64,000 bases of DNA from Amaricoccus solimangrovi. Lineage in GTDB: Bacteria > Pseudomonadota > Alphaproteobacteria > Rhodobacterales > Rhodobacteraceae. Positions within the stretch are counted from its first letter, which is position 1; each line of letters starts with the position of its first letter. Position numbers and translations under genes: made by a program. The notes below the pieces were generated by a model. It made no database searches. It saw only the letters and a list, made by a program, of their open reading frames with translations, and was not told the origin of the DNA. Location: the NCBI RefSeq assembly GCF_006385685.1, contig NZ_VFRP01000022.1:1-64000 (forward strand), in the 5' to 3' direction. Below, one piece after another: positions 16-49,399 of this stretch.

Positions 16-92
<77 letters not shown>

Positions 93-7490: not shown

Positions 7491-7621
7491 GTTGTCTTTC
7501 GATGACTACGCCCGGATGCGCCTTCCGCGGCTCGCGCCCCCCGCGCCGGCCCCGGAACGGCCATCCTCTTTCACTGCCTCGCGCCCCCGGCTAGATATAC
7601 CGGCCAAGGCCAAGGGACGAA

Positions 7622-8344
7622 ATGCGAAACACCCCCGACTCCACGCCATTGGCGATCGATTGCCTTCGCGCCGGATCCGACATCTGGTCCGGCGAGCGGC
7701 TCCGGCATCTGGCGGACCGGCCGCTGCGCAACAGGGCGCTCGCCGGGATCGAGGAACGCCGCCGGCATCTGGCGAGCCTGCCGCCGCTCACGCTGCATCC
7801 GAGCTACGCGGGGGTGAACGACCATGCCGGGCAGGCCTTCGTCACGCCCGGCACGATCTCGCTGCCGCGCCGCTACGGGCGGCTCCTCTATTCGATCGCC
7901 GCCGAGGTGCGTCCGCGGCTCACGCTCGAGGCGGGGGCCGGGCTCGGCATCTCGGGGATGTATCTCGCCGCGGCCGCGGCGCTCACCCGAACCGGGCGGT
8001 TCCTGAGCTTCGAGATCGGCGACTATTTTCGGCTCGCCGAGGAATCGATCCGGATGATCCTGCCCGGGGCCCGGGTGATCCCCGGCGATTTCGGCGATTT
8101 TCCCCGTCATCTCGAACCCGAGGCGCGGGTCGATCTGTGCTTTCTCGATTCCAGGCACGACTTCGACACGGTGGTCCGCGACTACAAGTCGCTGCTCGGC
8201 TGGCTCGCGCCGCGCGCCGTGGTGCTGGTCGACGACGTGATGTCGACGCCCGGCAGCCGCCGCGCCTGGGAGCATGTGCTGGCGCGGGACGACTTTCCCT
8301 TCGCCGCCCTGATCCAGGGCCGGATCGGCTTTCTCGCCCGATGA
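7622..8344 (+). CDS. Class I SAM-dependent methyltransferase
   Basis: A 240-aa cytoplasmic protein. A SAM-binding glycine motif LEAGAGLGISGMYLA (about residues 102-116) is followed by the acidic FEIGD at strand beta-2, LCFLDSRHDFDTVVRDYKSL and VVLVDDV, the layout of Methyltransf_24-type O-methyltransferases. It probably methylates a polysaccharide sugar or an intermediate, but the substrate is unknown. The ATG is preceded by AAGGGACGAA. Its last codons overlap the next gene (ATGA), so the two are translated together. Confidence 0.8.
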   Translation: MRNTPDSTPLAIDCLRAGSDIWSGERLRHLADRPLRNRALAGIEERRRHLASLPPLTLHPSYAGVNDHAGQAFVTPGTISLPRRYGRLLYSIAAEVRPRLTLEAGAGLGISGMYLAAAAALTRTGRFLSFEIGDYFRLAEESIRMILPGARVIPGDFGDFPRHLEPEARVDLCFLDSRHDFDTVVRDYKSLLGWLAPRAVVLVDDVMSTPGSRRAWEHVLARDDFPFAALIQGRIGFLAR

Positions 8345-9570
8345 CCCCCGCGATGCCCCGCGTCAGCGTGCTCCTGCCCGTCTACCAGGCGGCCGAGGTG
8401 GTCGGGCAGGCGATCGACACGATCCTCGGCCAGACCGCGCCACCCTTCGAGATCGTCGTCGCCGACGACGGCTCGACCGACGGGACCGGGGAGCGCGTGG
8501 CGGAACTCGGCCCGCGCTGCGAGGGCCAGGGCGTCCGGCTCGCCCTCGCGCGCTTTCCCGAGAACCGCGGCCGGGGCGCTTCGCGCAACCTCGCGGTGGC
8601 CCGTGCCGGAGGAGAACTCGTCGCCTGGTACGACGCCGACGACCTCTGGACCCCGGAAAAGCTCGCCCGGCAGGTCGAGGCCTTCGCGCGGGCGCGCGCG
8701 GAGAACCCCGCCGGCCGGCTGCTTCTCACCTGCAACTATCTGCGTCACGAGAGCGCGCGCGACCCGGGCCAGATCCTGCGCCCGGGGCCCACGATCGCGC
8801 TCGACGACATCGCCGCGATCCACACGCGGCGGCACATCCAGCTGCAGACGATCCTCGGTCCCCGCGAGGTCTTCCTGCGCACCCCGTTCGACGAGACGCT
8901 GAACCGCGCCGAGGATTTCGACTTCGCGCTGCGCTTCGCTGCGCTCGGCGGCAAGGTGGTGAACCCCGATCCCGAGGGGCCGCCGCTCGTGCACTACTTC
9001 CGGGGCGCGGCCAATTTCGGCAAGGAGGGGCGCGCCAGCAACCGGCGCCTCGTCCGGAAGAACGCGGCGATCTTCCGCGCGGCCCATGTCGACGCGCGCG
9101 CCTTTCTCGCCCACAAGCTCGGGATCGGCCTCGCCCGGCAGGATGCGCCTACCGATGACTCCCGTCCGATGCCGCCGGGGCCGGTCTTCGCCCAGGGCGC
9201 CGGGGACGGGTTCGACGCGGCCCGGCCCGGGCTCGAACGCCTCGCCGACGGGGCGCTCCGGATCGCGCTCGGGCCCGGCGCGGCGGTCGAGTATCTTGTC
9301 TCCGGCCCCGAGGGCGAGATCGCGCGCGCCCGGATCGAGGGGCTTCATCCCGTCCCGCAGCCGATGCTCCGGGACTGGTTCATGGCGGGCGGACGGCGGC
9401 TCGTGATCCGCTCCGTCGCGGGCGCGTGGTTCCCGGCCGAGCGGCTCCTGATCGCCCGCGCCGCCTCGGGGCTGATCTCGGTCTCCTCGGGCGCGCGGCC
9501 GCCCGGGACCCCCGACGCGGCCGTCACCGCCGGGGCCGACCGCCCGCGAGCAGACGAAGCATCTCCGTGA
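8341..9570 (+). CDS. Family 2 glycosyltransferase with extra C-terminal domain
   Basis: 409 aa. The GT2 domain spans about residues 5-250: RVSVLLPVYQAAEVVGQAID, DDGSTDGTG and a metal site in WYDADDLWTPEKL. A further 150 residues from about 275 (starting near PGPVFAQGAGDGFDAARPGL) resemble no family I recognise and may bind carbohydrate. The start ATG overlaps the methyltransferase stop. The 3' end overlaps the convergent glycosyltransferase gene by 47 bases. Confidence 0.85.
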   Translation: MTPAMPRVSVLLPVYQAAEVVGQAIDTILGQTAPPFEIVVADDGSTDGTGERVAELGPRCEGQGVRLALARFPENRGRGASRNLAVARAGGELVAWYDADDLWTPEKLARQVEAFARARAENPAGRLLLTCNYLRHESARDPGQILRPGPTIALDDIAAIHTRRHIQLQTILGPREVFLRTPFDETLNRAEDFDFALRFAALGGKVVNPDPEGPPLVHYFRGAANFGKEGRASNRRLVRKNAAIFRAAHVDARAFLAHKLGIGLARQDAPTDDSRPMPPGPVFAQGAGDGFDAARPGLERLADGALRIALGPGAAVEYLVSGPEGEIARARIEGLHPVPQPMLRDWFMAGGRRLVIRSVAGAWFPAERLLIARAASGLISVSSGARPPGTPDAAVTAGADRPRADEASP

Positions 9571-10384
9571 GATCCACTCCCCAGAGCCGGAACCTGATCC
9601 CGACCGCGACGGCGCGCCAGCGCCAGGGCGCGGGCGCGGCGAGATAGGCGCGGGTGTCGCCCAGGGGCGGCAGCAGCGTGCGGAAGGTCCAGGCGATCCG
9701 GCGGGGCAGGGGGCCGGCGCCGATCTGCCCGCCCTTGATCCGCCGCTCCTTCGCCGCGAGCTCGGCCCAGTCGGCGCGCGCCGGATGCCGGGTGAGCGCC
9801 CCGGCGACGAGACGGAGCGGATGCCCCGCCGCGCCGGCGCGGCGGCAGAATTCCGCGTCCCCGCCCGAGAGGCGGCGCGGATCGAACCCGCCGAGCGCCT
9901 CGAAGACCGCGCGCGGCACGGCGAGATTGGCGGTGGCCGCGTAGCCGCGCGCGACATAGCGCGCCTGCGGGATGCCCCGGATCATGTCGTAGATCTCGCA
10001 GGGATTCGGCGGCTCGCCCCCGACCACCTCGACCGGCCCGGCGAGCAGGCTCCCGGGATCCACTCCGGCGGCGAGCGCGGCGAGCCAGCGGGGCGCGGGC
10101 CGGCAGTCGGCGTCGGTGAAGACGAGCCAGCGCCCCCTCGCCGCCGCCGCGCCGAGATTGCGCGCCGCGTAGGAGCCGGGCCGGGCGCAGGCGAGGATCC
10201 GGAGCGCGAGGCCGGGCGGGGCCTCCGGCCGGGGCGCCGCCGCCTCCGGCTCGTTGTCGACGAGGATGAGCTCGAACCCGGGCGCGTCCGCCTGCGCCGC
10301 GAGCGCCGCGAGAAGCCGGGGGAGATGCTCCCATTGCCGGTAGACCGGGACGACGACCGAGAAGGCCGGCGCGTCCGGCGGCAT
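9524..10384 (-). CDS. Family 2 glycosyltransferase
   Basis: 286 aa, GT-A fold. FSVVVPVYRQWEHLPRLLAA is followed by LILVDNEP and a clear metal-binding VFTDADCRPAP. GGFDPRRLSGGDAEFCRR is the usual acceptor-side acidic motif of GT2 enzymes, similar to those annotated as mycofactocin- or chitin-synthase-like. The ATG at 10384 is 11 bases beyond the stop of the upstream GT2-GT4 gene, so it is the last gene of that minus-strand run. It overlaps the convergent gene at its 3' end. Confidence 0.85.
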   Translation of the reverse strand: MPPDAPAFSVVVPVYRQWEHLPRLLAALAAQADAPGFELILVDNEPEAAAPRPEAPPGLALRILACARPGSYAARNLGAAAARGRWLVFTDADCRPAPRWLAALAAGVDPGSLLAGPVEVVGGEPPNPCEIYDMIRGIPQARYVARGYAATANLAVPRAVFEALGGFDPRRLSGGDAEFCRRAGAAGHPLRLVAGALTRHPARADWAELAAKERRIKGGQIGAGPLPRRIAWTFRTLLPPLGDTRAYLAAPAPWRWRAVAVGIRFRLWGVDLTEMLRLLAGGRPRR

Positions 10385-10394
10385 GATCTCCCCC

Positions 10395-12980
10395 TCAGCC
10401 GCCAAGCCCGGCCCCGAGTTCAGCCCCGGTCCCCAACTCGGCCTCGGCGAGTTCGGCGGCGCGGGCGGGCGCCTCGGCGGCGAGCGCGGCGAGCCGGTCC
10501 GGGAAGAGCCGCGCGTCGCAGGTCTCGCGCGCGAAGGCGCGCCCGGCCTCGGCCCGCGCCAGCCAGGCCGCCTCGTCGGCCCAGAGCCGTTCGACGAGGG
10601 GCCAGACCTCCTCGGGCGCGGCGTAGAGCGCGGCCGGCCCGAAGGTCGGCTCGAATTCCGGCGGCAGGATCGCCGGCACGCCCGCGGCCATCGCCTCGAG
10701 CGCCGCGCGGCCGAATTCCTCAATGTAGCGCGGATCGGGATAGTGGAGGAAGAAATCGAGATCGGCGAGGAAGCCCGGCACGTCGCCGCCGAAGGCCTGG
10801 ACGCGCCAGTTCCCGGGCCAGGATCCGAGCCGCGCCCGCGCCGCCCGCGCGCCGCCGAGAAAGCGCGTCTCGCAGGCGCGCCCGGCGCAATAGGCGGCGC
10901 GGATCTCCGCCGCCGTCCGCGGCCATTTCAGCGCGTGGTCGCGCCCCTGCCGGCCGAGCACCGGCCGCGCCCGCTCCCGGCCGCGCCAGGCCGGGGGACG
11001 CGCGCCCCAGGCCTCGAGGTCGATCAGCGGCGTCCAGGTCGCGGGAGCGGGCCGGGGGTAACGCGGATCCCCGGCCATCAGCGCCCGGACCCGGCCCGAG
11101 ATCGGCAGCCAGTGCCCTTCCGATCCGAGCAGCCGGCCGAGATTGGTCCGGACCCGGCCCGGATCATAGGCGATCTCGCTCCGGTCGAGGTCGCGCTCGG
11201 CCATCTGGTTCACCACGACGGCGAGCGCGTCGTGGTCGATCTCGGGGAAGCGGTCCATCGCATGTTCGAGGAGCGGCGGATGGGTGAGGATCACCGTCGC
11301 CGCGCGAAGCCGCTCGCCCGGGGCGACGATCCGGACGCCGGAGGCGCGCGCGAGGTCGCGGATCGCGCCCGAGAGCGGCCGGGTCACGTCGAGATCGTAG
11401 CGGCGGTAGTGCAGGATCCCCATCGCGAGCCCCGCCGCCCGGCCCGCCGCGAGCATGGCGAGCGCCGAGCCCGTCGTGCCGCCCTTGAGGTTGAAATCGC
11501 CGATCAGCAGCGCGTCGAGCGGCGCGCCCGCGCCCCGGTCGGGACGCAGCGCGGGCGGGGCGGGAAAGCGGGCCACGCCGAGTTCCGCGAGCGCCTCGCG
11601 CCCCTCGCCCCGGCGCAGGCCCGCGTGCCAGTGCTCGGCCGCCTCGCGGTATTCCCGCCGTCCGCCGTGGTGGATCGAGAGCACATGCGTCGCCTCCGAC
11701 CCGGTCAGCGAGGCGGGGCCGAGCCGGCCGAGGGAGAGCGGGCAGGCGGGTTTCAGGATCTCCGCCCGCCAGGCCTCGCGCGGGCGCCCGGCGAGCGCCT
11801 CGATCCGCCAGATGAGTTCGGTATCGCCCGAGACGCGGATGTGGTCCCAGCCGCCGGCGGCGATCAGCGCCTCGCGCCGGATCATGTGCGACGAGAGGTT
11901 GGGCGAGACGAGGCTCCGGCTCGCCTGGGCGGTGCCGGTGAACATCAGGTCGGGCAGGGCGCGGGTCCAGGCGGTGAGATTGTGCGGCGGCCCCTCGCGC
12001 AGCAGATGCTCGGCCTGGAGCCGGATCTTCTCGGGATGCGACCAGTCGTCGGCGTCGTGCACGGTGACGATCTCGCCCCGCGCCTCGGAAAGCGCGCGGT
12101 TGCGCGCGGCGTAGGATCCGCCGTTCGTCCCGAGCCGGATCAGCCGGAAACGCGGGTCGCGCGCGGCGAAGGCGCGGGCCACCTCCGCCGTCGCATCCGG
12201 GCTCGCGTCGTCGACGACGAGCACCTCGATCTCGCGCCAGCTCTGCGCGGCGAGCGCGGCGAGCGCGGTCGGCAGCGTCTCCGCCGCCCGGTACGCGGGC
12301 AGGATCACGCTGACGAGCGGCCCGCCGGTGACGGGCGCGGGCGGTTTCGCCGCGACGAGATTGTCGATCGAGAGCGGCGCGTCGGGATCGCGGAGCGCGA
12401 GTTCCGCGAGGCCCATCCGCGCGAAGATCGCGTTGAGATGCGCGAGCGCCGCCGCCTCGTCGCGGCTCCGCGTCCAGGCGGTGCCCATTGCGGTGGCGCT
12501 GTGGCTCGCCGCGCGCATGAGCTCGATCGAGGGGTCGAAACCGCCGTGCCGGAGCGCGAGCAGCGCGCGCGCCTCCGCGCCGCGCCCGAGCAGGCAGAGG
12601 ATCTTCGCCTCCTGCAGGAACTGCCGCTTGTGCCGCCGCGCGCCCCGGTCGGCCGAGCGCATGAAGACGATGTTGCCGAGGGCGGAGCCGAACTCGCCCC
12701 GCGTCGCCTGGAAGCGCGCGAGGATCCAGGCCGCCTGCGCCGCCTCGCGCGGATGGGCGGCGAAGGAGAGGCGCAGCGCGTCGAGCTCGGCCGCGGCCGA
12801 GGCGGAGAACCCGCCCCAGAGCTTGTCCTCGAGCGCGCGCGCATCGCCGCCGCCGCCCCGGGCGCGGCGCCATTCCGGCAGCAGCCGGTCGCGGAAGGCC
12901 GTCCGCCAGTGCTCCGGGATCAGCCGGCGGAGGGCGGGCGGCAGGGCGAGATAGGCGCTCTCAAGCCGGTCGCTGATCAT
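10395..12980 (-). CDS. GT2-GT4 fusion glycosyltransferase
   Basis: 861 aa. Residues about 1-215 are an Ala/Arg-rich helical region, possibly solenoid. A GT2 domain occupies about 220-470 (LVSVILPAYRAAETLPTALA, VVDDASPDATAEVA, VHDADDWSHPEK). A GT4-like domain fills the rest, with DFFLHYPDPRYIEEFGRAAL leading into the family E-x7-E nucleotide-binding region and a GVPAILPPEFEPTFG loop. A single chain could thus add two sugars in sequence. It is a clear paralogue of the 890-aa gene two positions upstream. The start overlaps the sulfotransferase gene by 20 bases. Confidence 0.86.
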   Translation of the reverse strand: MISDRLESAYLALPPALRRLIPEHWRTAFRDRLLPEWRRARGGGGDARALEDKLWGGFSASAAAELDALRLSFAAHPREAAQAAWILARFQATRGEFGSALGNIVFMRSADRGARRHKRQFLQEAKILCLLGRGAEARALLALRHGGFDPSIELMRAASHSATAMGTAWTRSRDEAAALAHLNAIFARMGLAELALRDPDAPLSIDNLVAAKPPAPVTGGPLVSVILPAYRAAETLPTALAALAAQSWREIEVLVVDDASPDATAEVARAFAARDPRFRLIRLGTNGGSYAARNRALSEARGEIVTVHDADDWSHPEKIRLQAEHLLREGPPHNLTAWTRALPDLMFTGTAQASRSLVSPNLSSHMIRREALIAAGGWDHIRVSGDTELIWRIEALAGRPREAWRAEILKPACPLSLGRLGPASLTGSEATHVLSIHHGGRREYREAAEHWHAGLRRGEGREALAELGVARFPAPPALRPDRGAGAPLDALLIGDFNLKGGTTGSALAMLAAGRAAGLAMGILHYRRYDLDVTRPLSGAIRDLARASGVRIVAPGERLRAATVILTHPPLLEHAMDRFPEIDHDALAVVVNQMAERDLDRSEIAYDPGRVRTNLGRLLGSEGHWLPISGRVRALMAGDPRYPRPAPATWTPLIDLEAWGARPPAWRGRERARPVLGRQGRDHALKWPRTAAEIRAAYCAGRACETRFLGGARAARARLGSWPGNWRVQAFGGDVPGFLADLDFFLHYPDPRYIEEFGRAALEAMAAGVPAILPPEFEPTFGPAALYAAPEEVWPLVERLWADEAAWLARAEAGRAFARETCDARLFPDRLAALAAEAPARAAELAEAELGTGAELGAGLGG

Positions 12981-39190: not shown

Positions 39191-41320
39191 TTGAGCATTC
39201 CAAGGCCCCGGCGGCCCCGCCCCTCCCCGCTCCTTCCGGCGCTCCTCCTGCTTCTTCTCGCGGGAACGGGCGCCCGCGCCGCCGATCCCGCTCCCCTGGC
39301 CCGGCCCGCTTCCGAAGCGGCGGCCCTGACCGCGCCCCCGCCTCCGGATCCGGAAGCGGCGGCCGCGGGCAGGACGGCGGCCGTCGCGGAGGCCGAACGG
39401 GAGGCCGATCTCTTCGCGATGCCCGCGATCGCCGAGCAGACCCGCGCCGCCTCCGCCCGGATCCAGGCCGGCGATCTCGACGGCGCGGCGGCGATCCTCG
39501 ACCGGCTCGCCCGCGACCATCCCCGGATCGGCCTGCTCGAGGCCAACCGCGCGACGCTCCTCGCGCTGCGGGGCGATACCGGGGGCGCGGTCCGCGCCCT
39601 CGAGGCGGCGGCCGCCGCCGGCTATGACGGGATCGCCGCCCTCGCCGCCGACCCGATCTTCGCCGCCGTCGTCCGTGACCCCCGGATCGCCGCCCTCGCC
39701 GCGGCGGGGGTGGCCGCCCCTCCCCCCGGGGCGGAGGCGGAAACGCTGCTTCCGCGGGCGGAGCGCCCGCGGCCCCGCCCGCCGCTCCGCCTCGCGCCGG
39801 TCACGGATGGCATGGCCCCGGTCTCCGGCGCCAATACCGTCTGGGATCCGGATGCCGAGCGGCTGCGCGCGGGCTTCGCCTTTCCCGCCCGCGCCGAGGA
39901 CCCGGTGGTCCCCGACCGGAAGACCGCCGAGACCGACATCCTGCGCGAACACTACCGCCGGGGCCGCGCCGCGGGAAATCTCGGCGATCTCTACGACAAC
40001 CGCGACCGCGGCCATTCGGAACCGCCGGCCGCGAACCACCCCCAGCTCGCCCGCGTCACCTATCCGCCCGCCGCCCGCGCCGCCGATCTCGACTACGGGC
40101 TCGCCGAGCAGATCCTGTTCAACGCGCCGGCGCTCGGCAATTCCTCGACCGCGATCACCGGCGGCGCGCTCTGGCGCAGCCTGCCGCGGGCGGCGACGAC
40201 GCGGACGGACGGCACCGGTCCGCTCCGGCTCTGGCAGAACGCGAGCGCAAACGCGCTCTACGTCTATCCGTCGCACAAGGATTACGGCCCGGAGCAGGGC
40301 GACCTCTTTCCCGCCAATACCCCCTATCTCCTCGTCAGCCATGGCGCGGCCGGTTCGGATCAGCCCTTCCTCGAGGCGGTGGCGATGATCTACGCCGCCT
40401 ACCGGCCCGAGACCAAGGCGCGGCTCGTCCAGGAGGGGCTGATCGTGCCGATGACCCAGATGGTCTTCCGCCGCTCGCTCCGGAGCGTGCTCTCCCGCGA
40501 CGACTACATGAGCGCCGCCGCCCATCCCGCGGCCTACGAGCCCTATGACATCAACCTCGCCCGGATGGTGAGCCTCGCCAATTCGATCCGTCCCTCCGAC
40601 ATCCCGCCCCAGGTCCGGATCGCCGTCACCGCCGAGGATCTCGGGACCGAGGGGCTCGACTTCTTCGGGACCGGCCTCTCGGAACAGCTCTTCGACACGC
40701 CGGCGGCGGTGGCGCGGATCTGGCGCTCCCGCGCGCATACGAGGACCATCACGCTCTCGGCGGCGGAGACCGCCGATCCGAACGGCCGCGCTCTCTCCTT
40801 CGCATGGCGCCTGCTCGCGGGAGATCCGGAGAAGGTCCGGATCTCGCCCTCGGAGGACGGGCGGAGCGCGACGATCGAGCTCGACTGGCAGGAGCCCTTT
40901 CCGATCTCGAAGGACAATCCGGTCACGAGCCACCGGGTCGACATCGGCGTCTTCGCCAACAACGGCGTCCACGACAGCGCGCCCGCGATCCTCTCGGTCT
41001 ATTTCCCGCCCGACGAGGCGCGGGTCTACGAGACCGGCCCCGACGGGACGGCGCGCATCGCGAGCATCGACCACCACGGCCATCCCGAGGCCCCGGCCGA
41101 CCCGCTGCTCCTGCCCCGCGCCGACTGGCGCGACGACTATCTCTACGCCGAGGACGGCGCGCCCCTCGGCTGGATCCGCAGCTGGAGGACCGGCGCGCGG
41201 GAAGCCTTCGACGCGGCGGGCCGCCGCCAGGCCGCCGCCGGACCGGAAACCGTCGCCTATCCGCTCCGCCAGGAGGAGGACGGGACACTCACCGTGACGG
41301 AGACCCCCGGCGCCCCCTGA
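39191..41320 (+). CDS. Secreted protein of unknown function with TPR-like N-terminus
   Basis: 709 aa from a TTG with GGGAGA seven bases upstream. A Sec signal peptide (LLPALLLLLLAGTGARAADP) is followed by an Ala-rich TPR-like stretch (about 85-165: RIQAGDLDGAAAILDRLARD). The large C-terminal part has features of a lineage-specific exported family, such as ANALYVYPSHKDYGPEQGDL and a beta-rich region with LSAAETADPNGRALSFAWRL like a polycystic-kidney-disease-type repeat. No enzyme family recognised. A ParB-type palindrome starts three bases after its stop. Confidence 0.7.
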   Translation: MSIPRPRRPRPSPLLPALLLLLLAGTGARAADPAPLARPASEAAALTAPPPPDPEAAAAGRTAAVAEAEREADLFAMPAIAEQTRAASARIQAGDLDGAAAILDRLARDHPRIGLLEANRATLLALRGDTGGAVRALEAAAAAGYDGIAALAADPIFAAVVRDPRIAALAAAGVAAPPPGAEAETLLPRAERPRPRPPLRLAPVTDGMAPVSGANTVWDPDAERLRAGFAFPARAEDPVVPDRKTAETDILREHYRRGRAAGNLGDLYDNRDRGHSEPPAANHPQLARVTYPPAARAADLDYGLAEQILFNAPALGNSSTAITGGALWRSLPRAATTRTDGTGPLRLWQNASANALYVYPSHKDYGPEQGDLFPANTPYLLVSHGAAGSDQPFLEAVAMIYAAYRPETKARLVQEGLIVPMTQMVFRRSLRSVLSRDDYMSAAAHPAAYEPYDINLARMVSLANSIRPSDIPPQVRIAVTAEDLGTEGLDFFGTGLSEQLFDTPAAVARIWRSRAHTRTITLSAAETADPNGRALSFAWRLLAGDPEKVRISPSEDGRSATIELDWQEPFPISKDNPVTSHRVDIGVFANNGVHDSAPAILSVYFPPDEARVYETGPDGTARIASIDHHGHPEAPADPLLLPRADWRDDYLYAEDGAPLGWIRSWRTGAREAFDAAGRRQAAAGPETVAYPLRQEEDGTLTVTETPGAP

Positions 41321-41322
41321 GG

Positions 41323-41342
41323 ATGTTCCGCGCGCGGAACAT
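41323..41342. promoter_or_regulatory. parS: Putative ParB-binding site (parS), site 1
   Basis: Perfect 20-bp palindrome ATGTTCCGCGCGCGGAACAT, three bases after a stop codon. The core GTT-N10-AAC matches the general shape of repABC/plasmid parS palindromes. It is the site farthest from parB. Confidence 0.75.
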
Positions 41343-41473
41343 TTCCGCCATCCACCATCCCCGGCCGATTTTCTTGAAAAGCCGGGGTCGAGCGGCTACG
41401 GGAAAAGACGCCGCCGCGTCTCGGCGCTCCCTCGGGAGCCAGGGGTGTACTGGCTTGTTCGGTTCCCATTTCG

Positions 41474-42724
41474 ATGGATTTACGCATGTACAACCTGAAG
41501 TGCCGCTTCTGCGACGCGCCAATTTCTGAGACCTTCATCGACCTCGGCACCTCCCCCATCGCCAATTCCTACGTGAAGCCGGAGAATTTCATGAAGATGG
41601 AGCCGTTCTTCGCGCTCCACGCCTTCGTCTGCGGCGAATGCTTCCTGGTGCAGCTTCCGAACATGGAATCGCGGGAGCATATCTTCAACGAGGAATACGC
41701 CTATTTCTCCTCCTACTCGGCCTCGGTCCTCGCCCATTCCAAGGCCTATGTGGAGATGATGATCGAGCGCTTCGGCTTCGACGCCGGCTCCCAGGTGATC
41801 GAGGTCGCGAGCAACGACGGCTATCTGCTGAAATACTTCCAGGAGCGCGGCGTGAAGGTGCTCGGCATCGAGCCCTCGGGCAGCGTCGCGGAGGCGGCCG
41901 AGAAGGCCGGCATCCCGAGCCGGGTGCGCTTCTTCGGCGTCGAGACCGCGAAGGCGCTGCGGGAGGAAGGCTTCGCCGCCGACCTGATGCTCGGCAACAA
42001 CGTGATGGCCCATGTGCCGGACCTGAACGACTTCATCGGCGGCTTCCCGATCCTGGTGAGACCGGGCGGGATCGTCACGATCGAATTCCCGCATCTGCTC
42101 CGCACGATCGAGGACCTCTATTACGACCAGGTCTATCACGAGCACTATTCCTATCTCTCGCTCGTCACGGTCGAGAAGATCTTCGCCGCCCACGGCATGA
42201 CGCTCTTCGACGTCGAGGAGATCGCCCCCCAGGGCGGGAGCCTCCGGATCTTCGCCTGCCACGCCGGCGACGCCGCCCATCCGGTGACCGAACGGGTCGC
42301 GGCGCTGCGCGCGCGAGAGATCGCCGCGGGACTCACCACGCCCGAAGGCTACCGGACCTTCGCGGAGCGGGTCCGGGAGACCAAGCGCGACCTGCTGCGC
42401 TTCCTGATGGAGGCGAAGGAGGCGGGCAAGACCGTGGTCGGCTACGGCGCCCCGGCCAAGGCCACGACGCTGCTGAACTACTGCGGCGTCAAGACCGACA
42501 TGATCGACTACACGGTCGACATCAGCCCCTACAAGCACGGGCGCCTGCTGCCCGGCACCCGGATCCCGATCCATCCGCCCGAGAGGATCCTGGAGACGAA
42601 GCCCGACTACGTGCTGATCCTCGCCTGGAACATCAAGGACGAGATCACGCGGAACATGGCGGCGGTGCGCGACTGGGGCGGCCGGTTCGTCGTCCCCCTG
42701 CCCCGGGTCGAGGTGCTCGACTGA
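41474..42724 (+). CDS. NDP-hexose C-methyltransferase
   Basis: 416 aa (412 if the ATG at 41486 is used). An N-terminal zinc-binding CRFCDAP with a later CGECF is the Methyltransf_13 domain. A SAM-binding domain follows (VIEVASNDGYLLKYFQERGV), then the C-terminal Methyltransf_14 region with VVGYGAPAKATTLLNYCGV. This three-part layout is that of 3-C-methyltransferases acting on NDP-4-keto-deoxyhexoses. Together with rfbF it suggests a C-branched sugar in the glycan. The stop overlaps the next ATG by one base (TGATG). Confidence 0.87.
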   Translation: MDLRMYNLKCRFCDAPISETFIDLGTSPIANSYVKPENFMKMEPFFALHAFVCGECFLVQLPNMESREHIFNEEYAYFSSYSASVLAHSKAYVEMMIERFGFDAGSQVIEVASNDGYLLKYFQERGVKVLGIEPSGSVAEAAEKAGIPSRVRFFGVETAKALREEGFAADLMLGNNVMAHVPDLNDFIGGFPILVRPGGIVTIEFPHLLRTIEDLYYDQVYHEHYSYLSLVTVEKIFAAHGMTLFDVEEIAPQGGSLRIFACHAGDAAHPVTERVAALRAREIAAGLTTPEGYRTFAERVRETKRDLLRFLMEAKEAGKTVVGYGAPAKATTLLNYCGVKTDMIDYTVDISPYKHGRLLPGTRIPIHPPERILETKPDYVLILAWNIKDEITRNMAAVRDWGGRFVVPLPRVEVLD

Positions 42725-44187
42725 TGAGCCGGACGACCACCCCCGGAGCCGAGGGGGCGGTCGCCCCCTCCCCCGCCACGCCCTCCGCGGCCCCGGATGT
42801 TCCGCGCGCGGAACATTCTTCCACCCCCTCCGATGTTCCGCGCGCGGAACATTCTCCCGACTCCATGGACGTTCCGCGCGCGGAACATCCGGGCGCGGCC
42901 AACGCGCCCGGCGCCGCGATGAAGGCGCTGATCGCCCGGCTCTATCCGATCTGCCGCTCGATCACCGGGCCGGGCGTGCGCGAGACGCTGGGCATCCTGA
43001 GGGAGCAGATCCCGCTCGAGATCCGCGAGGTGCCCTCCGGCACCCCGGTCTTCGACTGGGTGGTGCCGGAGGAATGGGTGATCCGCGACGCCTTCGTGAA
43101 GGACCCCTCGGGCGCGCGCGTGATCGACTTCCGGGCGCACAACCTCTCGGTCGTGAACTACTCCCGCCCCTTCAGGGGCAGGCTCACGCTCGAGGAACTC
43201 CGGCCCCATCTCCACGCCGAGGAGGCCCATCCCGACTGGATCCCCTACCGCACCAGCTACTATCAGGAGGCCTGGGGCTTCTGCCTGCCCTGGAACCGGC
43301 TCCGGGCGATGGGGCCCGGCCCCTACGAGGTCGAGATCGACGCCGAGGTGAAGCCCGGCTCCCTCACCTATGGCGAATGCCTCGTTCCGGGCGAGAGCGA
43401 CGAGGAGGTGCTCGTCTCCGCCCATACCTGCCACCCGTCGCTCGCGAACGACAACCTCTCCGGGATCGCGGTCGCGGTCGAGCTCATCAGGGGGCTGATG
43501 GCGAGGAAGCCCCGGCTCTCCTACCGCTTCCTCTTCATCCCGGGCACGATCGGCTCGATCACCTGGCTCGCGCTGAACGAGGCGCGGCTTTCCCGGATCA
43601 GGGCCGGACTCGTCGCGGTCAATCTCGGCGATCCCGGGATCATGCACTACAAGAAGAGCCGGCGCGGCGACGCGGCGGTGGACCGGGCGGCGGCGCATGT
43701 GCTCGGGGCGCGCGGCGATCACAGGATCGAGGATTTCTCGCCCTATGGCTATGACGAGCGGCAGTTCTGCTCGCCGGGGATCGACCTCCCCGTCGGCTGC
43801 CTGTCGCGCACGCCCTACGGCCGCTTCCCGGAATATCACACCTCCGCCGACAATCTCGACCTGGTGCGGGAGGAGGCGCTGGCGGCCTCGCTCGAGACGT
43901 TCCGCGCGATCTTCGCGGTGCTGGAGCGGGACGGGGTCTATCTCAACCTCTCGCCGAAGGGCGAGCCGATGCTGGGCAAGCGCGGCCTCTACGCGGCGCT
44001 CGGCGGGCGGTCGGACACGAAGGACCGACAGATGGCGATGCTCTGGGTGCTGAACCTTTCCGACGGGCGCCATTCGCTGCTCGACATCGCGGAACGGGCG
44101 GGGCTGCCCTTCGAGCTCGTCGCCGACGTGGCGGAGACGCTTCAGGCCCACGACCTGCTCGCCCCCGCCGCGGGGCGGGTCCTATGA
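42724..44187 (+). CDS. DUF2172/DUF4910-type aminopeptidase-like protein with ParB sites in its N-terminus
   Basis: 487 aa. The body (from IARLYPICRSITGPGVRETL) matches DUF2172/DUF4910 zinc-peptidase-like proteins of surface-glycan loci. VSAHTCHPSLANDNLSGIAV carries the metal-binding His and Asp, YHTSADNLDLV is the later metal site, and a winged-helix-like tail ends the chain. The role in glycan synthesis is unknown. The first 65 residues are an extra Ala/Pro/Ser segment with three DVPRAEH repeats encoded by palindromes. The ATG at 42724 is favoured by TGATG coupling; a start at 42919 would match the family's usual N-terminus but has no ribosome site. Confidence 0.8.
   Translation: MSRTTTPGAEGAVAPSPATPSAAPDVPRAEHSSTPSDVPRAEHSPDSMDVPRAEHPGAANAPGAAMKALIARLYPICRSITGPGVRETLGILREQIPLEIREVPSGTPVFDWVVPEEWVIRDAFVKDPSGARVIDFRAHNLSVVNYSRPFRGRLTLEELRPHLHAEEAHPDWIPYRTSYYQEAWGFCLPWNRLRAMGPGPYEVEIDAEVKPGSLTYGECLVPGESDEEVLVSAHTCHPSLANDNLSGIAVAVELIRGLMARKPRLSYRFLFIPGTIGSITWLALNEARLSRIRAGLVAVNLGDPGIMHYKKSRRGDAAVDRAAAHVLGARGDHRIEDFSPYGYDERQFCSPGIDLPVGCLSRTPYGRFPEYHTSADNLDLVREEALAASLETFRAIFAVLERDGVYLNLSPKGEPMLGKRGLYAALGGRSDTKDRQMAMLWVLNLSDGRHSLLDIAERAGLPFELVADVAETLQAHDLLAPAAGRVL
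42797..42816. promoter_or_regulatory. parS: Putative parS, site 2 (inside a coding region)
   Basis: Perfect copy of the 20-bp palindrome, read in frame as D-V-P-R-A-E-H within the peptidase gene. It is the first of three copies exactly 36 bp apart. Confidence 0.75.
42833..42852. promoter_or_regulatory. parS: Putative parS, site 3 (inside a coding region)
   Basis: Perfect palindrome 36 bp after site 2, again translated as DVPRAEH. The 16-base spacers on each side differ in sequence, so only the palindrome is conserved. Confidence 0.75.
42869..42888. promoter_or_regulatory. parS: Putative parS, site 4 (inside a coding region)
   Basis: Third copy at 36-bp spacing. One base differs at the outer edge (GAC for GAT), a synonymous change, while the 16-bp core GTTCCGCGCGCGGAAC is intact. 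Confidence 0.72.
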
Positions 44188-44897
44188 GCGCCGCGGCGCC
44201 CGATCTCGCCGGCAAGGTCGCGCTCGTCACCGGCGCCTCGGCCGGGATCGGCGCGGGCATCGCCGCCGCGCTCGCCGCCGCCGGGGCCGAGGTCCATGGC
44301 ATCGCGCGCGCGGGCGGGGCGGGGGCGTATCGCTGGCATCCGGTGGATCTCGGCGATCCGGCGGCGATCGCGGGCTTCCTCGCGGGTTTCGCCCCGCCCC
44401 GGCTCGACATCCTCGTCCATGGCGCGGGACTGCTGACGCCGGACGGTTTCACCGCGGAACAGGGCGATCCGGAGGCGGGGCTCGCCGCGCTCGACCGCCA
44501 GCTCCAGGTGAACCTGCGCGCGCCCTGGCAGCTGACGGCCGGCCTGCTGCCCCGGCTGATCGCGGCGAAGGGCTGGGTCGTCATGCTCAATTCCTCGATC
44601 TGGATGAACGCGCGGGCCGGGCTCGCCGGCTACGCGGCGTCGAAATACGCGCTCCGGGCGATGACCGACGCGCTGCGCGCCGAGGTGAACGGGCGGGGCG
44701 TCCGGGTGCTCTCGGTCTATCCGGGCCGGACCGCGAGCCGGATGCAGGCGGAGGCGTCGCAGGCGGCCGGCGCCCCCTACCACCCCGAGCGCCTGCTCCA
44801 GCCCGAGGCGATCGCCGGGAGCGTGCTCTCGGCCCTGGCCCTGCCCGAGACGGCCGAGGTGACCGACCTCCACATCCGCCCCGCGCTGAAAGGGTAG
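44184..44897 (+). CDS. Short-chain dehydrogenase/reductase
   Basis: A 237-aa classical SDR. VALVTGASAGIGAGIAAALA is the cofactor site; the catalytic set is the Ser of LNSSI and Y-x3-K in YAASKYALRAM. It ends with VTDLHIRPALKG, a common tail in this group. It overlaps the peptidase stop by four bases (ATGA), so the methyltransferase, peptidase and SDR form one operon. It probably reduces a 4-keto sugar or similar intermediate, but this is not proven by sequence. Confidence 0.85.
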   Translation: MSAAAPDLAGKVALVTGASAGIGAGIAAALAAAGAEVHGIARAGGAGAYRWHPVDLGDPAAIAGFLAGFAPPRLDILVHGAGLLTPDGFTAEQGDPEAGLAALDRQLQVNLRAPWQLTAGLLPRLIAAKGWVVMLNSSIWMNARAGLAGYAASKYALRAMTDALRAEVNGRGVRVLSVYPGRTASRMQAEASQAAGAPYHPERLLQPEAIAGSVLSALALPETAEVTDLHIRPALKG

Positions 44898-44904
44898 GGG
44901 ACGG

Positions 44905-44924
44905 ATGTTCCGCGCGCGGAACAT
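44905..44924. promoter_or_regulatory. parS: Putative parS, site 5
   Basis: Perfect palindrome in the short gap between the convergent SDR and replication initiator genes. Confidence 0.78.
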
Positions 44925-44983
44925 TCCGCGGCGCATCCCTTCCGCGCGGCGGTCAGCTGTCCGCCGCCTCTCTCGTCCCCGGG

Positions 44984-45003
44984 ATGTTCCGCGCGCGGAA
45001 CTT
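44984..45003. promoter_or_regulatory. parS: Putative parS, site 6
   Basis: 79 bp after site 5 in the same gap. The 16-bp core is intact, with one outer mismatch (ATG against CTT). Confidence 0.74.
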
Positions 45004-45008
45004 CCGTC

Positions 45009-46142
45009 TCACCGCGGGAGCCCGCGTTCGGCGCGGGAGCGGCAGAAGGCGAGGAAGGCCGCGTCGGGGTCGTGGAGCGGCGGGCGGCCGGTCGAGACCC
45101 AGAAGCGCAGCCATTCCGCCTCGAGCCAGTGGGTGTCGAAACCCGGCGCCGCCGCCCGGGCGCGCTCATGCGCGAAGGCCGAGAGCCGCGGCCCCTCGCC
45201 CGGCGCGGGGGCCATCCGGCCCCGGGCGCGCACGAGCAGGACGTCATCCGCCCCGAGCGACAGCGCGTAATCCGGCAGCCCGTCCTCCTCGGCCATGTCG
45301 CGGATCATCCTGCGAAACACCCGGCGGGGCGAGGTGGAGCCGGACTTCAGCAGCAGCGTCCCGAGCCCGACCCGCCATTCCGCCTGGCGCCCGCAATGCT
45401 TGCGCGCGATCTCGTAGACGCGGCGCTCGAGCGGCTTTCTGAGGCGGAAATAGTCGCGGGAGAGCGTCAGCACCGATTTCGAGACGACCGAGCGGTACAT
45501 CCAGTCCGAGAGCGTGACCGAGACCATGATCATCCGCCCCCCGCGCGCCTTGCGCTGGATCTCCCAGGAGTCGATCAGACCGAAGCCCCGGGTGCTCTCG
45601 ACGCCGCCGGTGGCGATATTGGTGACGATGCGCGTGCCCGAGAGCCGCTCGAAGGCCTCGCGCAGCCGCCGGTAGCCGTCGCCCGAGGTCTCGCGGTTGG
45701 TCGCGCTCAGGAGGTCATGCGCCTTGAGATGGAGCACCGGGCTCACCGGCCGGCCCTCGTTCAGCGCGGCGACGAGCTGGCTCACGCAATAGATCAGGAT
45801 GTCCTTGTCATGGATCGTCGCGAGCCCCTTGACCGAGGGGGTGATCTCGATCGTGGCCTCGCCATGCTCGTAGCTCAGGATCCGCCGGTCGGGCCGGGTC
45901 GCGAGCGTGAAGAGCGGATGCTCCATCGAGGCCATGTCCTCCTTGGGGCTCGCCCAGGGCAGGTCGCAGATGAAGAACCCCTCGGCCGGGGCGGCGGGCA
46001 GCGTCTCGCCCGACAGGACCGCCGGCGGCGGCGGCTCCGCCCCGGAAGCGCCGCCCGTCTTGCGCGCCCCGGATCGCCCGCGCGGAGTCCTTTCCGGAAC
46101 GGAGCCGGAAGTCTCCGCCGCGTCGCGCCTGCTCTGCCTCAT
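45009..46142 (-). CDS. Plasmid replication initiator, RPA family (PF10134)
   Basis: 377 aa from the ATG at 46142 after a basic, Pro/Ala-rich N-terminus of about 65 residues. The family core is clear: MEHPLFTLATRPDR, YEHGEATIEITPSVKGLATI, HDKDILIYCVSQLVAALNEG and AFERLSGTRIVTNI, followed by a winged-helix C-terminal part (LRKPLERRVYEIARKH). It binds iterons and starts replication of large alphaproteobacterial plasmids and chromids. The iterons lie about 80-150 bases upstream of the start, with parAB divergent beyond them. An earlier in-frame start at 46220 would abut the iterons and is less likely. Confidence 0.9.
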   Translation of the reverse strand: MRQSRRDAAETSGSVPERTPRGRSGARKTGGASGAEPPPPAVLSGETLPAAPAEGFFICDLPWASPKEDMASMEHPLFTLATRPDRRILSYEHGEATIEITPSVKGLATIHDKDILIYCVSQLVAALNEGRPVSPVLHLKAHDLLSATNRETSGDGYRRLREAFERLSGTRIVTNIATGGVESTRGFGLIDSWEIQRKARGGRMIMVSVTLSDWMYRSVVSKSVLTLSRDYFRLRKPLERRVYEIARKHCGRQAEWRVGLGTLLLKSGSTSPRRVFRRMIRDMAEEDGLPDYALSLGADDVLLVRARGRMAPAPGEGPRLSAFAHERARAAAPGFDTHWLEAEWLRFWVSTGRPPLHDPDAAFLAFCRSRAERGLPR

Positions 46143-46518
46143 GAAACGGCGGCCCCATCTTATCGTGGTTTCAATGCCACCCACGCTTAGGGGGCGCGCC
46201 GCCGCCCCGCAACAGGACATTTCGGGGTTTCGGATTCATCTTCCCGTGGTTTCGGATTCATCCCAACGTGGTTCCGGATTCACCAAAGCCCCCCGAACCG
46301 CGCTTTCTCTCCGTGGAAGCAGGGGTTTACCGGAAAGCTCCGAAGCCGTAACACATTCTCTAACACCGGATAACACTGCGAAAAATCCTCGCCGACCCCG
46401 CGAGCCCGGTTCCGATCCCTGAAAAACCGGGAAAAAACGCTTCGCCTGCCGGTTCCGCTTTGATATGCCGCGAATCATGGTACATTGCTGAAAACGCGGC
46501 ACATGAGGTTTTCGAGCG
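46143..46518 (+). other. Replication origin and control region between rep and parA
   Basis: 376 non-coding bases, clearly less GC-rich than their surroundings in the second half. They hold three tandem 22-bp repeats, a diverged single copy near 46165 (GTGGTTTCAATGCC), three TAACAC motifs (46349, 46361, 46371) and an inverted repeat (TGCCGCG at 46466-46472, CGCGGCA at 46495-46501) just before parA. The order iterons, AT-richer stretch, parA operator is what an iteron-controlled origin would show. Confidence 0.7.
46224..46289 (+). repeat. Three tandem 22-bp iterons
   Basis: Consensus GTGGTTTCGGATTCATC followed by a variable five bases, at 46224-46245, 46246-46267 and 46268-46289 with no gaps. 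A 22-bp period, two helical turns, puts each copy on the same DNA face, as in Rep-binding iterons. Confidence 0.85.
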
Positions 46519-47946
46519 ATGTCCCAGACCCCCGGCGGCTCCCCGGAGGAAGCCCCGCCGCCCTATTTCAACATCTCCCCCGACGAGGCGCTCGCCGAGC
46601 TCGAGGCGCCGGTCGGCACGGCGGATTTCGGGCGGATCGCCGAGACCTGCGCGCGCGGCCGCGCCGATCTCGTCGCCCGCGGCCATGAGGGAACGGGCGC
46701 GCGCCGGCTCCGGCTCTTCTCGACATGGGAGATCACCAAATACCTGATCCCGGTCGCCCCCGCGCATTTCCGCCGGGTGCTGCGCGCCAATCCCGACCTG
46801 CCCCAGGGCGCGAGCGAGACGGTGGGCGGCGCGAAATGGTTCACCCTCGACGAGGTGCTTCGCCTGCGCGCGCATTTCGCCGCCGAGGGATCGCGGGCGA
46901 AGGAGTACAGGCCCTACCGCCCGGAAGGGCTGCCCGCGAAGGTCTGCGCGGTCGCGAACTTCAAGGGCGGCGTCGGCAAGACCTCGATGGCCGCCCATCT
47001 CGCGATGTCCGCCGCGCTCGACGGCTACCGGGTGCTGGTGATCGACCTCGACAGCCAGGGCTCGATGACCTCGATCTTCGGCGGCGGGGTCGCCTCCGAA
47101 TGGGACACGGTCTTCCCGCTCGTGGCGCGCGACTACGCGCTCGGTCTCCGCGCCGAGAACCAGCGCCGCGTCGACCGGGGCGATCCGCCGCTGCCGCTCG
47201 ACGAGACGCTGACCGAGGCGCTGACCCGCTCGAGCGCCGACGTGATCCGGAAGACGCACTGGCCCAACATCGACCTCATCGGCGCGCAGCTCAATCTCTA
47301 CTGGGCCGAGTTCCAGATCCCGGTCTGGCGCATGTCGCTCCGGGGCTGGAAGCTCTGGGAGGCGCTCTCGAACGCGCTTCAGCGCGACGGCGTGCTCGAC
47401 GCCTACGACATCGTCATCCTCGATACCCCGCCCGCGCTCGGCTATCTCACGATCAACGGGCTGACGGCGGCGGACATCCTGCTGGTGCCGATGGGCGCCT
47501 CCTTCCTCGAATTCGATTCCACCGGCCGCTTCTTCGACATGCTGCATTCGACCTTCCTCTCGATCGAGGAGGGGGAGAACGTCGCCGCCCGCGCGCTCGG
47601 CCGGCCGGAGATCCATTTCGAATGGGACGCGGTGCGCGCCGTCATCACCCGCTACGACGCGGGCCAGCAGGCCGAGCTCGCCGGGCTCATGCAGGCCTAT
47701 CTCGGCCGCGCCCTCTCGCCCTGGCGGCAGGATTTCACCGCGCTGGTCGGCCAGGCGAGCGAGCAGGTGAACGGGATCTACGAGGCCGACTACCGCGACT
47801 TCAACCGCGACACCTATGCCCGCGGCCGGCTGACCTTCGACCAGACCTACGCGCTCTTCAAGCGGCTGCTGCTCGCGAGCTGGCGGCGCGACGAGATCGA
47901 GGCGCGGGCGGAGGCCGAGGCCCGGAGCCGGAAGGAGAGCGCCTGA
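46519..47946 (+). CDS. parA: ParA-family partition ATPase
   Basis: 475 aa, the long type with an N-terminal DNA-binding region (about 1-140, FSTWEITKYLI then WFTLDEVLRLRAHF), which usually represses its own operon. The deviant Walker A is KGGVGKT in AVANFKGGVGKTSMA near 150, and Walker A' is DLDSQGSMTS. Walker B is DIVILDTPPALGYLTINGL. It drives segregation of ParB-bound parS DNA. The ATG overlaps nothing, and its stop overlaps the parB start (TGATG). Confidence 0.94.
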   Translation: MSQTPGGSPEEAPPPYFNISPDEALAELEAPVGTADFGRIAETCARGRADLVARGHEGTGARRLRLFSTWEITKYLIPVAPAHFRRVLRANPDLPQGASETVGGAKWFTLDEVLRLRAHFAAEGSRAKEYRPYRPEGLPAKVCAVANFKGGVGKTSMAAHLAMSAALDGYRVLVIDLDSQGSMTSIFGGGVASEWDTVFPLVARDYALGLRAENQRRVDRGDPPLPLDETLTEALTRSSADVIRKTHWPNIDLIGAQLNLYWAEFQIPVWRMSLRGWKLWEALSNALQRDGVLDAYDIVILDTPPALGYLTINGLTAADILLVPMGASFLEFDSTGRFFDMLHSTFLSIEEGENVAARALGRPEIHFEWDAVRAVITRYDAGQQAELAGLMQAYLGRALSPWRQDFTALVGQASEQVNGIYEADYRDFNRDTYARGRLTFDQTYALFKRLLLASWRRDEIEARAEAEARSRKESA

Positions 47947-49130
47947 TGGCCCGCCGCCGCCTGAACCCCGCCATCCCCGCCGCCGCGGAGGAGGCCGCGG
48001 CCGATGTTCCGCGCGCGGAACATTTCGCGGAACATTTCGGGCGGGTTCCGCCCCCCTTCGCGCCCGCCGATCCCGGGGGGACTCGCGAGACGGTCGCCGC
48101 GGCGGCCTTCGCCGCCGGGCCGGCGCCGATCGCGCGCGTCGCGGCGGAGGCGGCGGGGCGCGCCGCGCTCGACGAGGTGGTCGAGACGCTGCGCCGCGCC
48201 GAGGCCGAGGGGCGGATGCTGCGCGCGATCCCGCTCGACGACATCGCCGCCGACCATATCGCCCGCGACCGGATGGGCGCCGATCCCCTCGGCGCGGCGG
48301 ACGAGGAGATGATCGCGCTCCGCGAGTCGATCCGGGCCCATGGCCAGCGGATGCCGATCGAGGTGACGCCGCTGCGTGGCCCCGCCTCGGACGAGGGAGG
48401 CGACGGCGGGTTCGCGCGCGGGACGCTGCCCTTCGGCCTCATCTCCGGCTGGCGCCGGCTCGCCGCGCTGCGCGCGCTCTTCGAGGAGACCGGGGAGGAG
48501 CGCTTCGCCACGGCGACGGCGCTGATCCGCCGGCCCGCGAGCGCGGGCGAGGCCTATGTCGCGATGGTCGAGGAGAACGAGATCCGGCTCGGCCTCAGCC
48601 AGTACGAGCGCGCGCGCATCGCCGCGGTCGCGACCGAGCGCGGCGTCTTCCCGAGCGAGAAGGCGGCGCTGCTCACGCTCTTCGCGAATGCGAGCCGGGC
48701 GAAACGCTCGCGCATCCGCGCCTTCACCGAGATCTATCACGCGCTCGACGGGGCGCTCGGCTTTCCGGCCCATCTGCCGGAACGGCTCGGCCTCAGGCTG
48801 GTCGAACTCATCCGCGCGGGCCGGGGGGACGCGCTCGTCGCCGCGCTGGTGGCGGGCGCGCCCCGGAGCGCGGAGGCGGAGCTCGACCTGCTCGAGCGGA
48901 CCGCCGCGCGGCTGGAGGCGGAACCGGGCGCGCCTTCCGAAGCGGCGCCGGAGGCGCGGGAGGCCTCGCCCGGGCGGGGCGGGACGGAGGGGGACTGGTC
49001 CTGGGAGCGGCTCGGCCCCGGGCTCGAACTCGGCTTCCGGGACGGGGGGAAGCCCGAACTCCGGCTCCGGGGCGCGGGCGTAACGGCGGCGCTTCGGGAG
49101 AAGATCCTCGCCGCGCTGCGGCGGGGCTGA
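47946..49130 (+). CDS. parB: ParB-family partition protein
   Basis: 394 aa. An unusual low-complexity N-terminus of about 90 residues precedes the ParB/Srx-like domain (IPLDDIAADHIARDRMG, LRESIRAHGQRMPIEVTPL, LISGWRRLAALRAL) and the helix-turn-helix region (AMVEENEIRLGLSQYERARI). The C-terminal domain is basic with an acidic/Pro linker. It should bind the 16-bp palindromes around it. A copy of the palindrome lies in its own codons 20-26 and is translated as DVPRAEH, followed by a half-site. Confidence 0.92.
   Translation: MARRRLNPAIPAAAEEAAADVPRAEHFAEHFGRVPPPFAPADPGGTRETVAAAAFAAGPAPIARVAAEAAGRAALDEVVETLRRAEAEGRMLRAIPLDDIAADHIARDRMGADPLGAADEEMIALRESIRAHGQRMPIEVTPLRGPASDEGGDGGFARGTLPFGLISGWRRLAALRALFEETGEERFATATALIRRPASAGEAYVAMVEENEIRLGLSQYERARIAAVATERGVFPSEKAALLTLFANASRAKRSRIRAFTEIYHALDGALGFPAHLPERLGLRLVELIRAGRGDALVAALVAGAPRSAEAELDLLERTAARLEAEPGAPSEAAPEAREASPGRGGTEGDWSWERLGPGLELGFRDGGKPELRLRGAGVTAALREKILAALRRG
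48004..48023. promoter_or_regulatory. parS: Putative parS, site 7 (inside parB)
   Basis: Perfect 20-bp palindrome near the 5' end of parB, followed at 48027-48036 by an extra half-site CGCGGAACAT. A site here could let ParB spread over, and reduce, its own transcription. Confidence 0.78.
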
Positions 49131-49309
49131 GCGCGGCTCCCGCGGAACCTCCGGGGGAGGGGGTAAGGCTCCCTCTCCCGAGGGCTTGGCAAACTCCCGG
49201 TCGTGACGGACGGGGAGCGATGGCTCGGGGGAATCTGGGGCGAATCGGATCGATTCGGGGAGCGGAAATCCCGCCCCGCCCCCGGAAGATTCGGAGTAGC
49301 GGGGTAGTC

Positions 49310-49399
49310 TGGCGGAGAGAGAGGGATTCGAACCCTCGAGACGGTTCCCCGCCTACACACTTTCCAGGCGTGCGCCTTCGACCACTCGGCCACCTCTCC
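49310..49399 (-). tRNA. tRNA-Ser (GGA anticodon)
   Basis: The reverse strand gives GGAGAGGTGGCCGAGTGGTC at the 5' end, anticodon loop with GGA, a long variable arm, TTCGAAT in the T loop, and a 3' end with CCA encoded. It is convergent with parB, 180 bases away. Confidence 0.96.

Follow-up and report, generated by a model that had tools for sequence, protein, structure and literature searches.

We conclude that three palindromes at the 5′ end of a peptidase-like gene are very likely parS sites of a low-copy RPA-type plasmid, which, to judge from comparison of related sequences, would be bound by the plasmid's ParB together with four other sites and would have been gained as about 50 codons of a cargo gene. 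Three of the seven probable parS sites of the plasmid are located in the probably translated tail of a cargo enzyme.

The window, by which we mean the whole stretch of 64,000 nt that was analyzed, is part of contig C52 (72,517 bp), one of 135 contigs of a genome totalling 4.86 Mb. It contains the palindrome ATGTTCCGCGCGCGGAACAT seven times within 6.7 kb around rep, parA, and parB, no copy having more than a single mismatch in the 18-bp core. The original prediction covered three of these copies, and the further ones start at 41323, 44905, 44984, and 48004. The first copy (41323–41342) is found 3 bp past the stop of ORF 39191–41320; the next three form the array (42797–42816 and 42833–42852, both perfect over 20 bp, and 42869–42888, with a perfect 16-bp core at 42871–42886 and one synonymous change outside it); two are between the ends of the SDR and rep genes (44905–44924, and 44984–45003 with a perfect 16-bp core at 44986–45001 and one mismatch in the 18-bp core); and the last (48004–48023) is in the N-terminal tail of parB, where it is read in the same frame, as DVPRAEH, and is followed by a half site. 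This embedded site continues into a repeated half site at window positions 48019–48041 (GGAACATTTCGCGGAACATTTCG). At up to three mismatches the window holds seven matches (mean of 100 shuffles: 0.11), and the set is beyond chance. When all 135 contigs were scanned, five exact and two one-mismatch 18-bp cores were found on C52, and no exact core outside this rep-parAB contig; the rest of the genome had a single one-mismatch core (C93), a single two-mismatch core (C35), and ten cores at three mismatches (reversed control pattern: four). Single sites with one mismatch on C93 and in G060 and G130, and with two on C35, were taken as chance, and no repeated palindrome is present beside ParB on C93.

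The array gene is the middle one of three on the plus strand, with a C-methyltransferase gene immediately 5′ (41474–42724; Methyltransf_13/14), the peptidase-like gene itself (42724–44187; Pfam DUF4910, DUF2172, HTH_47, and Peptidase_M28), and a short-chain dehydrogenase (SDR) gene immediately 3′ (44184–44897). They are followed on the minus strand by rep (45009–46148; PF10134), encoding replication initiator protein A (RPA), and on the plus strand by a gene for a parA-type ATPase (46519–47946; AAA_31, PF13614, E = 2.9e-30; TIGR03453, E = 1.4e-55, under the cut-off) and a predicted gene for a parB-type centromere-binding protein (47946–49130; TIGR03454 far under the cut-off, ParB/Noc/KorB fold). 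Three imperfect 22-bp direct repeats between rep and parA (46223–46288; two from a repeat finder, the third spotted by eye) are possible iterons. A Walker-type parA gene adjoining parB, and several palindromic sites clustered at the partition genes, are as in ParABS systems, and an RPA initiator divergent from parAB is as in RPA-type plasmids of Rhodobacterales; the order rep-parA-parB is shared by 8 of 10 annotated relatives of the replicon chosen among the matches listed. In a repABC replicon the initiator would be RepC, encoded together with repA and repB in a single operon; here it is instead an RPA on the strand opposite to parA. The plasmid contig also carries genes for tRNA-Met (cat; window 16–92) and tRNA-Ser (gga; 49310–49399), and these plasmid-borne tRNA genes could indicate a chromid-like replicon or an integrated stretch.

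The partner protein is ParB-like in its predicted fold. An AlphaFold model built with 14 sequences (pLDDT 75.7, pTM 0.58) had 22 PDB matches with E ≤ 0.001, all of them ParB/Spo0J, Noc, KorB, or PadC chains, with TM-scores that are low over the whole model (0.18–0.35 by query length); residues 1–58, containing the embedded site, had pLDDT < 50. No Pfam ParB domain was found in the parB product, NCBIfam matches of the partition proteins were far under their cut-offs, and a profile from 14 ParB relatives matched ParB-type chains in the PDB weakly, with sulfiredoxin ranked first. The palindrome itself (GTTCCGCGCGCGGAAC) fits GTTNNNNGCNNNNAAC, the repABC parS consensus as quoted in PMC9040568.

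We then related the sites to ParB across 147 genomes (own included in all counts). ParB relatives are present in 47 of them and GTTYCGCGCGCGRAAC in 25, with 68 sites (reversed-pattern control: 14). Most of these GTTY..RAAC sites (55 of the 68) lie within about 7 kb (6.7 kb) of a ParB match, 39 of them within 1 kb, and all 21 sites of the GTTCC form are within 6.7 kb of one. The 13 sites away from ParB loci, about the same number as in the control, include four on one large G045 contig and four in G025. These sites far from ParB matches (GTTTCGCGCGCGAAAC; G045:C1 in four places, and G025:C1, C2, C4, and C9) may in part be chance. In a tree of 30 ParBs all seven rows with the GTTCC form fall into one clade (support 100/99; no value as low in 500 shuffles), and 15 others have the GTTTC form; at the remaining eight loci, including L014 among the near kin of site carriers, the fetched stretch has no GTTYCGCGCGCGRAAC. 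Site sequence thus tracks the ParB clade, as in ParABS systems, with rep and parA linked in most loci; because the three genes travel together, clade association alone cannot single out ParB. Two loci point to ParB, not Rep, as the partner, although the argument is thin. One (L078) has parAB and two sites but no rep match in 19 kb; the other (L138), on a plasmid of Qingshengfaniella alkalisoli (6146–10547), has parB and four GTTTC-type sites, no parA match, and only a fragment of rep, and is possibly a relict partition locus. The argument is thin because four further loci that lack a complete rep match either carry no site or are truncated (L071, L075, and L079; L141, which ends with its record, was not used as evidence). 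Because the GTTCC form tracks one ParB clade and the sites cluster near the family's ParB, it is highly probable that the palindromes serve an RPA-type plasmid as parS sites. Their original description as ParB-type palindromes is therefore upheld, as predicted parS of the local ParB, by co-location, by dependence on ParB clade, and by an exact core found only on its own contig.

The array had been described as three palindromes at 36-bp spacing in the peptidase gene, with only the palindrome conserved between copies and a single base change that is synonymous, and each of these points was borne out. The copies start at 42797, 42833, and 42869, in frame with ORF 42724–44187, where each is read as DVPRAEH; within the 20 bp the copies differ solely by GAC in place of GAT in copy 3, both being Asp codons; and 20, 19, and 19 of 20 bases are shared inside the palindromes in the pairwise comparisons vs. 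8, 6, and 6 of the other 15 bases (Fisher P = 0.00096, 0.00056, and 0.00056; the 15 are the remaining bases of the 36-bp unit with its first base omitted). Codon choice in the array is unusual for its surroundings. In six local genes GTT accounts for 3 of 135 valine codons, GAA for 28 of 172 glutamate codons, and GAT for 18 of 117 aspartate codons; the array copies have GTT three times, GAA three times, and GAT twice. A codon set equally rare or rarer was drawn from local usage in 12 of 200,000 draws, a figure that takes the three copies as independent, which they are not if the array arose by duplication; for one copy alone it was 1,353 of 200,000. We read this codon choice as a sign of selection on DNA. 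Together with the other reading frames used in relatives and the intergenic copies, it supports the earlier suggestion that the DNA rather than the peptide has been kept. The in-frame 36-bp spacing may be a mere consequence of sitting in a gene.

The orthologous loci of the peptidase gene were compared with the window, as the original prediction had proposed. All 16 have a candidate start at most 26 codons before the conserved body, vs. 65 codons for the best-supported start here, which bears out its statement that relatives start later; in some of the 16, further in-frame starts lie upstream. Annotated starts are 18, 22, and 20 codons ahead of the body (L125, L126, and L127, respectively). 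No site with up to two mismatches was found in the fetched stretches of these loci (17 stretches, G008 being represented twice), and the long N-terminus and the sites are both absent from the orthologs. The order methyltransferase-peptidase-SDR is present in the fetched flanks of two of the 16, plasmid pCC1099_1 of Rhizobium sp. CC1099 (L124; identities of 64, 67, and 45 percent) and a genome of the same family (L130; 60, 61, and 49 percent). L130 has its best candidate starts directly at the methyltransferase stop, 12 to 14 codons ahead of the body. Because these same-order operons are without sites, and because their tails, counted from the best candidate starts, do not exceed about 15 codons vs. 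65 in the window, we conclude that about 50 site-bearing codons were acquired between start and body.

Whether the array is translated depends on the start of the 65-codon extension that carries it (42724–42918, plus strand), the ATG of which overlaps the methyltransferase stop. With a true start at 42919 (or 42865), the array would be real parS DNA in a transcribed leader outside the protein, and a start at 42919, which would leave it simply intergenic, was one of the two things that the original prediction had named as its refutation. The ortholog on pCC1099_1 has an ATG aligned with 42919, preceded by AAGGAG and 41 bp past the methyltransferase stop, which speaks for such a start, but the same ortholog has a TTG overlapping that stop, 15 codons ahead of the body, and the best start of L130 is at the place equivalent to 42724 relative to the stop. 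Pairing of the upstream 20 bases with the anti-SD sequence is −7.2 kcal/mol at 42724 vs. −3.5 at 42865 and −1.7 at 42919 (for comparison, −6.3 at the parA start and −9.4 at the parB start), although −7.2 is not rare in itself, −8.3 being reached by 5 percent of random 20-mers. GC content by codon position is nearly flat over the whole extension including palindromes (0.754, 0.723, and 0.785), as a leader would have it, but outside the palindromes third positions are GC in 41 of 44 cases vs. 31 of 47 and 38 of 44 at the other positions (69 of 91 pooled; shuffle P = 0.010), and the peptidase frame has the best codon score of the six (−1.0; next −13.7), both of which favor a coding extension. We therefore consider an untranslated array unlikely. 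The start at 42724 is the best supported, which makes it likely that the array is translated from there.

Other readings concern what the sites are for. ParB bound to the array might also, or mainly, regulate the peptidase operon, acting as a roadblock or silencer, which would suit three sites at the 5′ end of a gene within a gene series; the best fold matches of the ParB model also include a repressor with a ParB fold, KorB. We regard this as decidedly improbable, however, since the four other sites are elsewhere (two of them between the SDR and rep ends), sites on related plasmids adjoin quite different genes, and a scan of 41200–49300 for sigma-70-type sites only found no promoter-like match. 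Selection on the peptide DVPRAEH itself, e.g., as a binding tag common to ParB and the peptidase, would account for the reading VPRAE at codons 13–25 of the parB tail, where 5 of 7 GTTCC-clade rows (window included) have a site. It has very little in its favor otherwise: relatives read the site as GFARETS (parB of G082) or VSRAK, or have it between genes, and codon choice is skewed toward the palindrome. Least credible is a role of the palindromes at the RNA level, as hairpins that act in attenuation or stability from the leader or the 5′ coding part of the mRNA. The stretch 42700–42930 does have a folding energy of −135.4 kcal/mol, as low a value being reached by none of 200 shuffles (z = −7.06), but so strong a fold is expected from any GC-rich palindrome repeated three times, and hairpins leave the intergenic copies and the ParB-clade dependence of the sequence unexplained.

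We thus favor parS sites gained within a cargo gene, and infer the following sequence of events. A stretch of about 50 codons with three sites would have been acquired at the 5′ end of the gene, directly after the start codon, in what is a variable tail of the protein, and this translated tail would have no role of its own. The DVPRAEH frame would have been kept, a reading free of the Met, Phe, and Cys that the two alternative frames (MFRARN and CSARGT) contain, and selection at the DNA level would retain rare codons such as GTT. ParB (47946–49130) would bind the three array palindromes and the four other sites within 6.7 kb, load there, spread, and be moved by ParA, and sister plasmids would be separated in this way. 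The number and positions of the sites and their in-frame repetition are observed, as are the unusual codons, the association with a ParB clade, and the absence from same-order orthologs.

If so, a single stretch of DNA is under two codes, as centromere site and as protein tail. The case is a clean one, with the same-order operons without the insert representing the before state. The switch between GTTTC and GTTCC with one ParB clade also provides a natural set for tests of ParB-parS specificity in RPA-type plasmids. It is a rather remote prospect that the coding array is the principal centromere, such that the host cargo gene could not be lost without harm to inheritance; if it is, the plasmid would have locked a cargo gene into its segregation machinery by means of three ParB sites that form a 12-residue protein repeat, and would show how a cargo gene can become tied to plasmid inheritance. 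The idea can be tested here because, according to the available text of PMC9040568, pAMI4 requires its three-site cluster, a single site being insufficient for full stability.

The original prediction held a centromere in a protein-coding gene to be very unusual, and this did not stand: intragenic parS sites have been published (PMC4368675; PMC9040568), and in ten annotated plasmid stretches, picked by us among 40 matches listed of 594 records with a ParB match, 5 of 20 sites are within listed CDSs (two in parB, and one each in vanZ, rfbD, and a hypothetical gene); no site is present in two of these stretches. Sites within parB recur in this plasmid family, in the tail in 5 of 7 GTTCC-clade rows (window included) and close to the C-terminus in G073 and G025. 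The rfbD site (L144, Gemmobacter fulvus p5, position 1976) is at codon 217 of 283, read CFARETF, outside any tail. Coding positions were taken from parB alignments and annotated records; gene-caller predictions were rejected, as antisense frames of the peptidase and of parB were called in this 70 percent GC DNA. In the same genome, contig C114 has a ParB relative with another palindrome (CTTCCCCGCGGGGAAG) in three copies, each in an open frame and read ETFPAGK. These copies (AAACCTTCCCCGCGGGGAAG; L083, G000:C114, at 9706, 10110, and 10953) are near the end of a parA-like frame, assigned by eye, and in both end regions of parB.

As for closely spaced sites, 4 of 394 genomes of the family (own included) have two with starts 24–54 bp apart. 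A looser scan of genome contigs returned 32 stretches, 16 of which have two full 16-bp sites within 60 bp; parA or parB is matched in the fetched stretch in 14 of these 16, where the sites are spaced 32 to 47 bp apart, and the two others are L096 (Solibacteraceae) and L105, the pair of the latter being that of L087, which has parB. In the 14 stretches the pairs lie in the parA-parB gap or at most about 150 bp behind parB, except for one L103 pair about 1.3 kb behind it. With annotation reaching as far as parA and parB at the other loci, the array studied here is the only one that could be assigned to a cargo gene. Viral contigs scanned for close GTTCC pairs had none, and the literature, at the level of titles and abstract openings and with subscription papers mostly beyond reach, yielded no gene with an array of three sites. 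Single intragenic sites are well known; three within the same cargo gene are uncommon, and their neat arrangement in a single protein tail is a rarer variant.

Of 10 annotated relatives of the replicon chosen among the matches listed, 9 carry genes for sugars or glycosyltransferases in the fetched stretch. Initiators of the RepA-I type belong to the RPA proteins. Phaeobacter RepA-I plasmids with surface-polysaccharide genes, as far as the accessible text of PMC4148982 describes them, are of similar size and likewise carry sugar and cell-envelope genes; palindromes are not mentioned in that text. Pseudomonas aeruginosa PAO1 has nine of its ten parS sites most probably within coding sequence, where they constrain codons as here, but they are chromosomal and scattered over separate genes, and the likeness is one of location (PMC4368675, in the part available). 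Among the closest parallels are the repABC replicons of Rhodobacterales, for which the available text of PMC9040568 reports parS within ORFs, including cas3, casA, and casB, proposes that such sites are selected even inside coding sequences, and does not describe three in-frame sites in one gene. Their parS are also 16-bp palindromes fitting GTTNNNNGCNNNNAAC, in several copies near replication and partition genes and some of them in ORFs, but the initiator is RepC, and here it is RPA. The 3parS of pAMI4 (PMC9040568, same text) is likewise a cluster of three sites, but a non-coding one.
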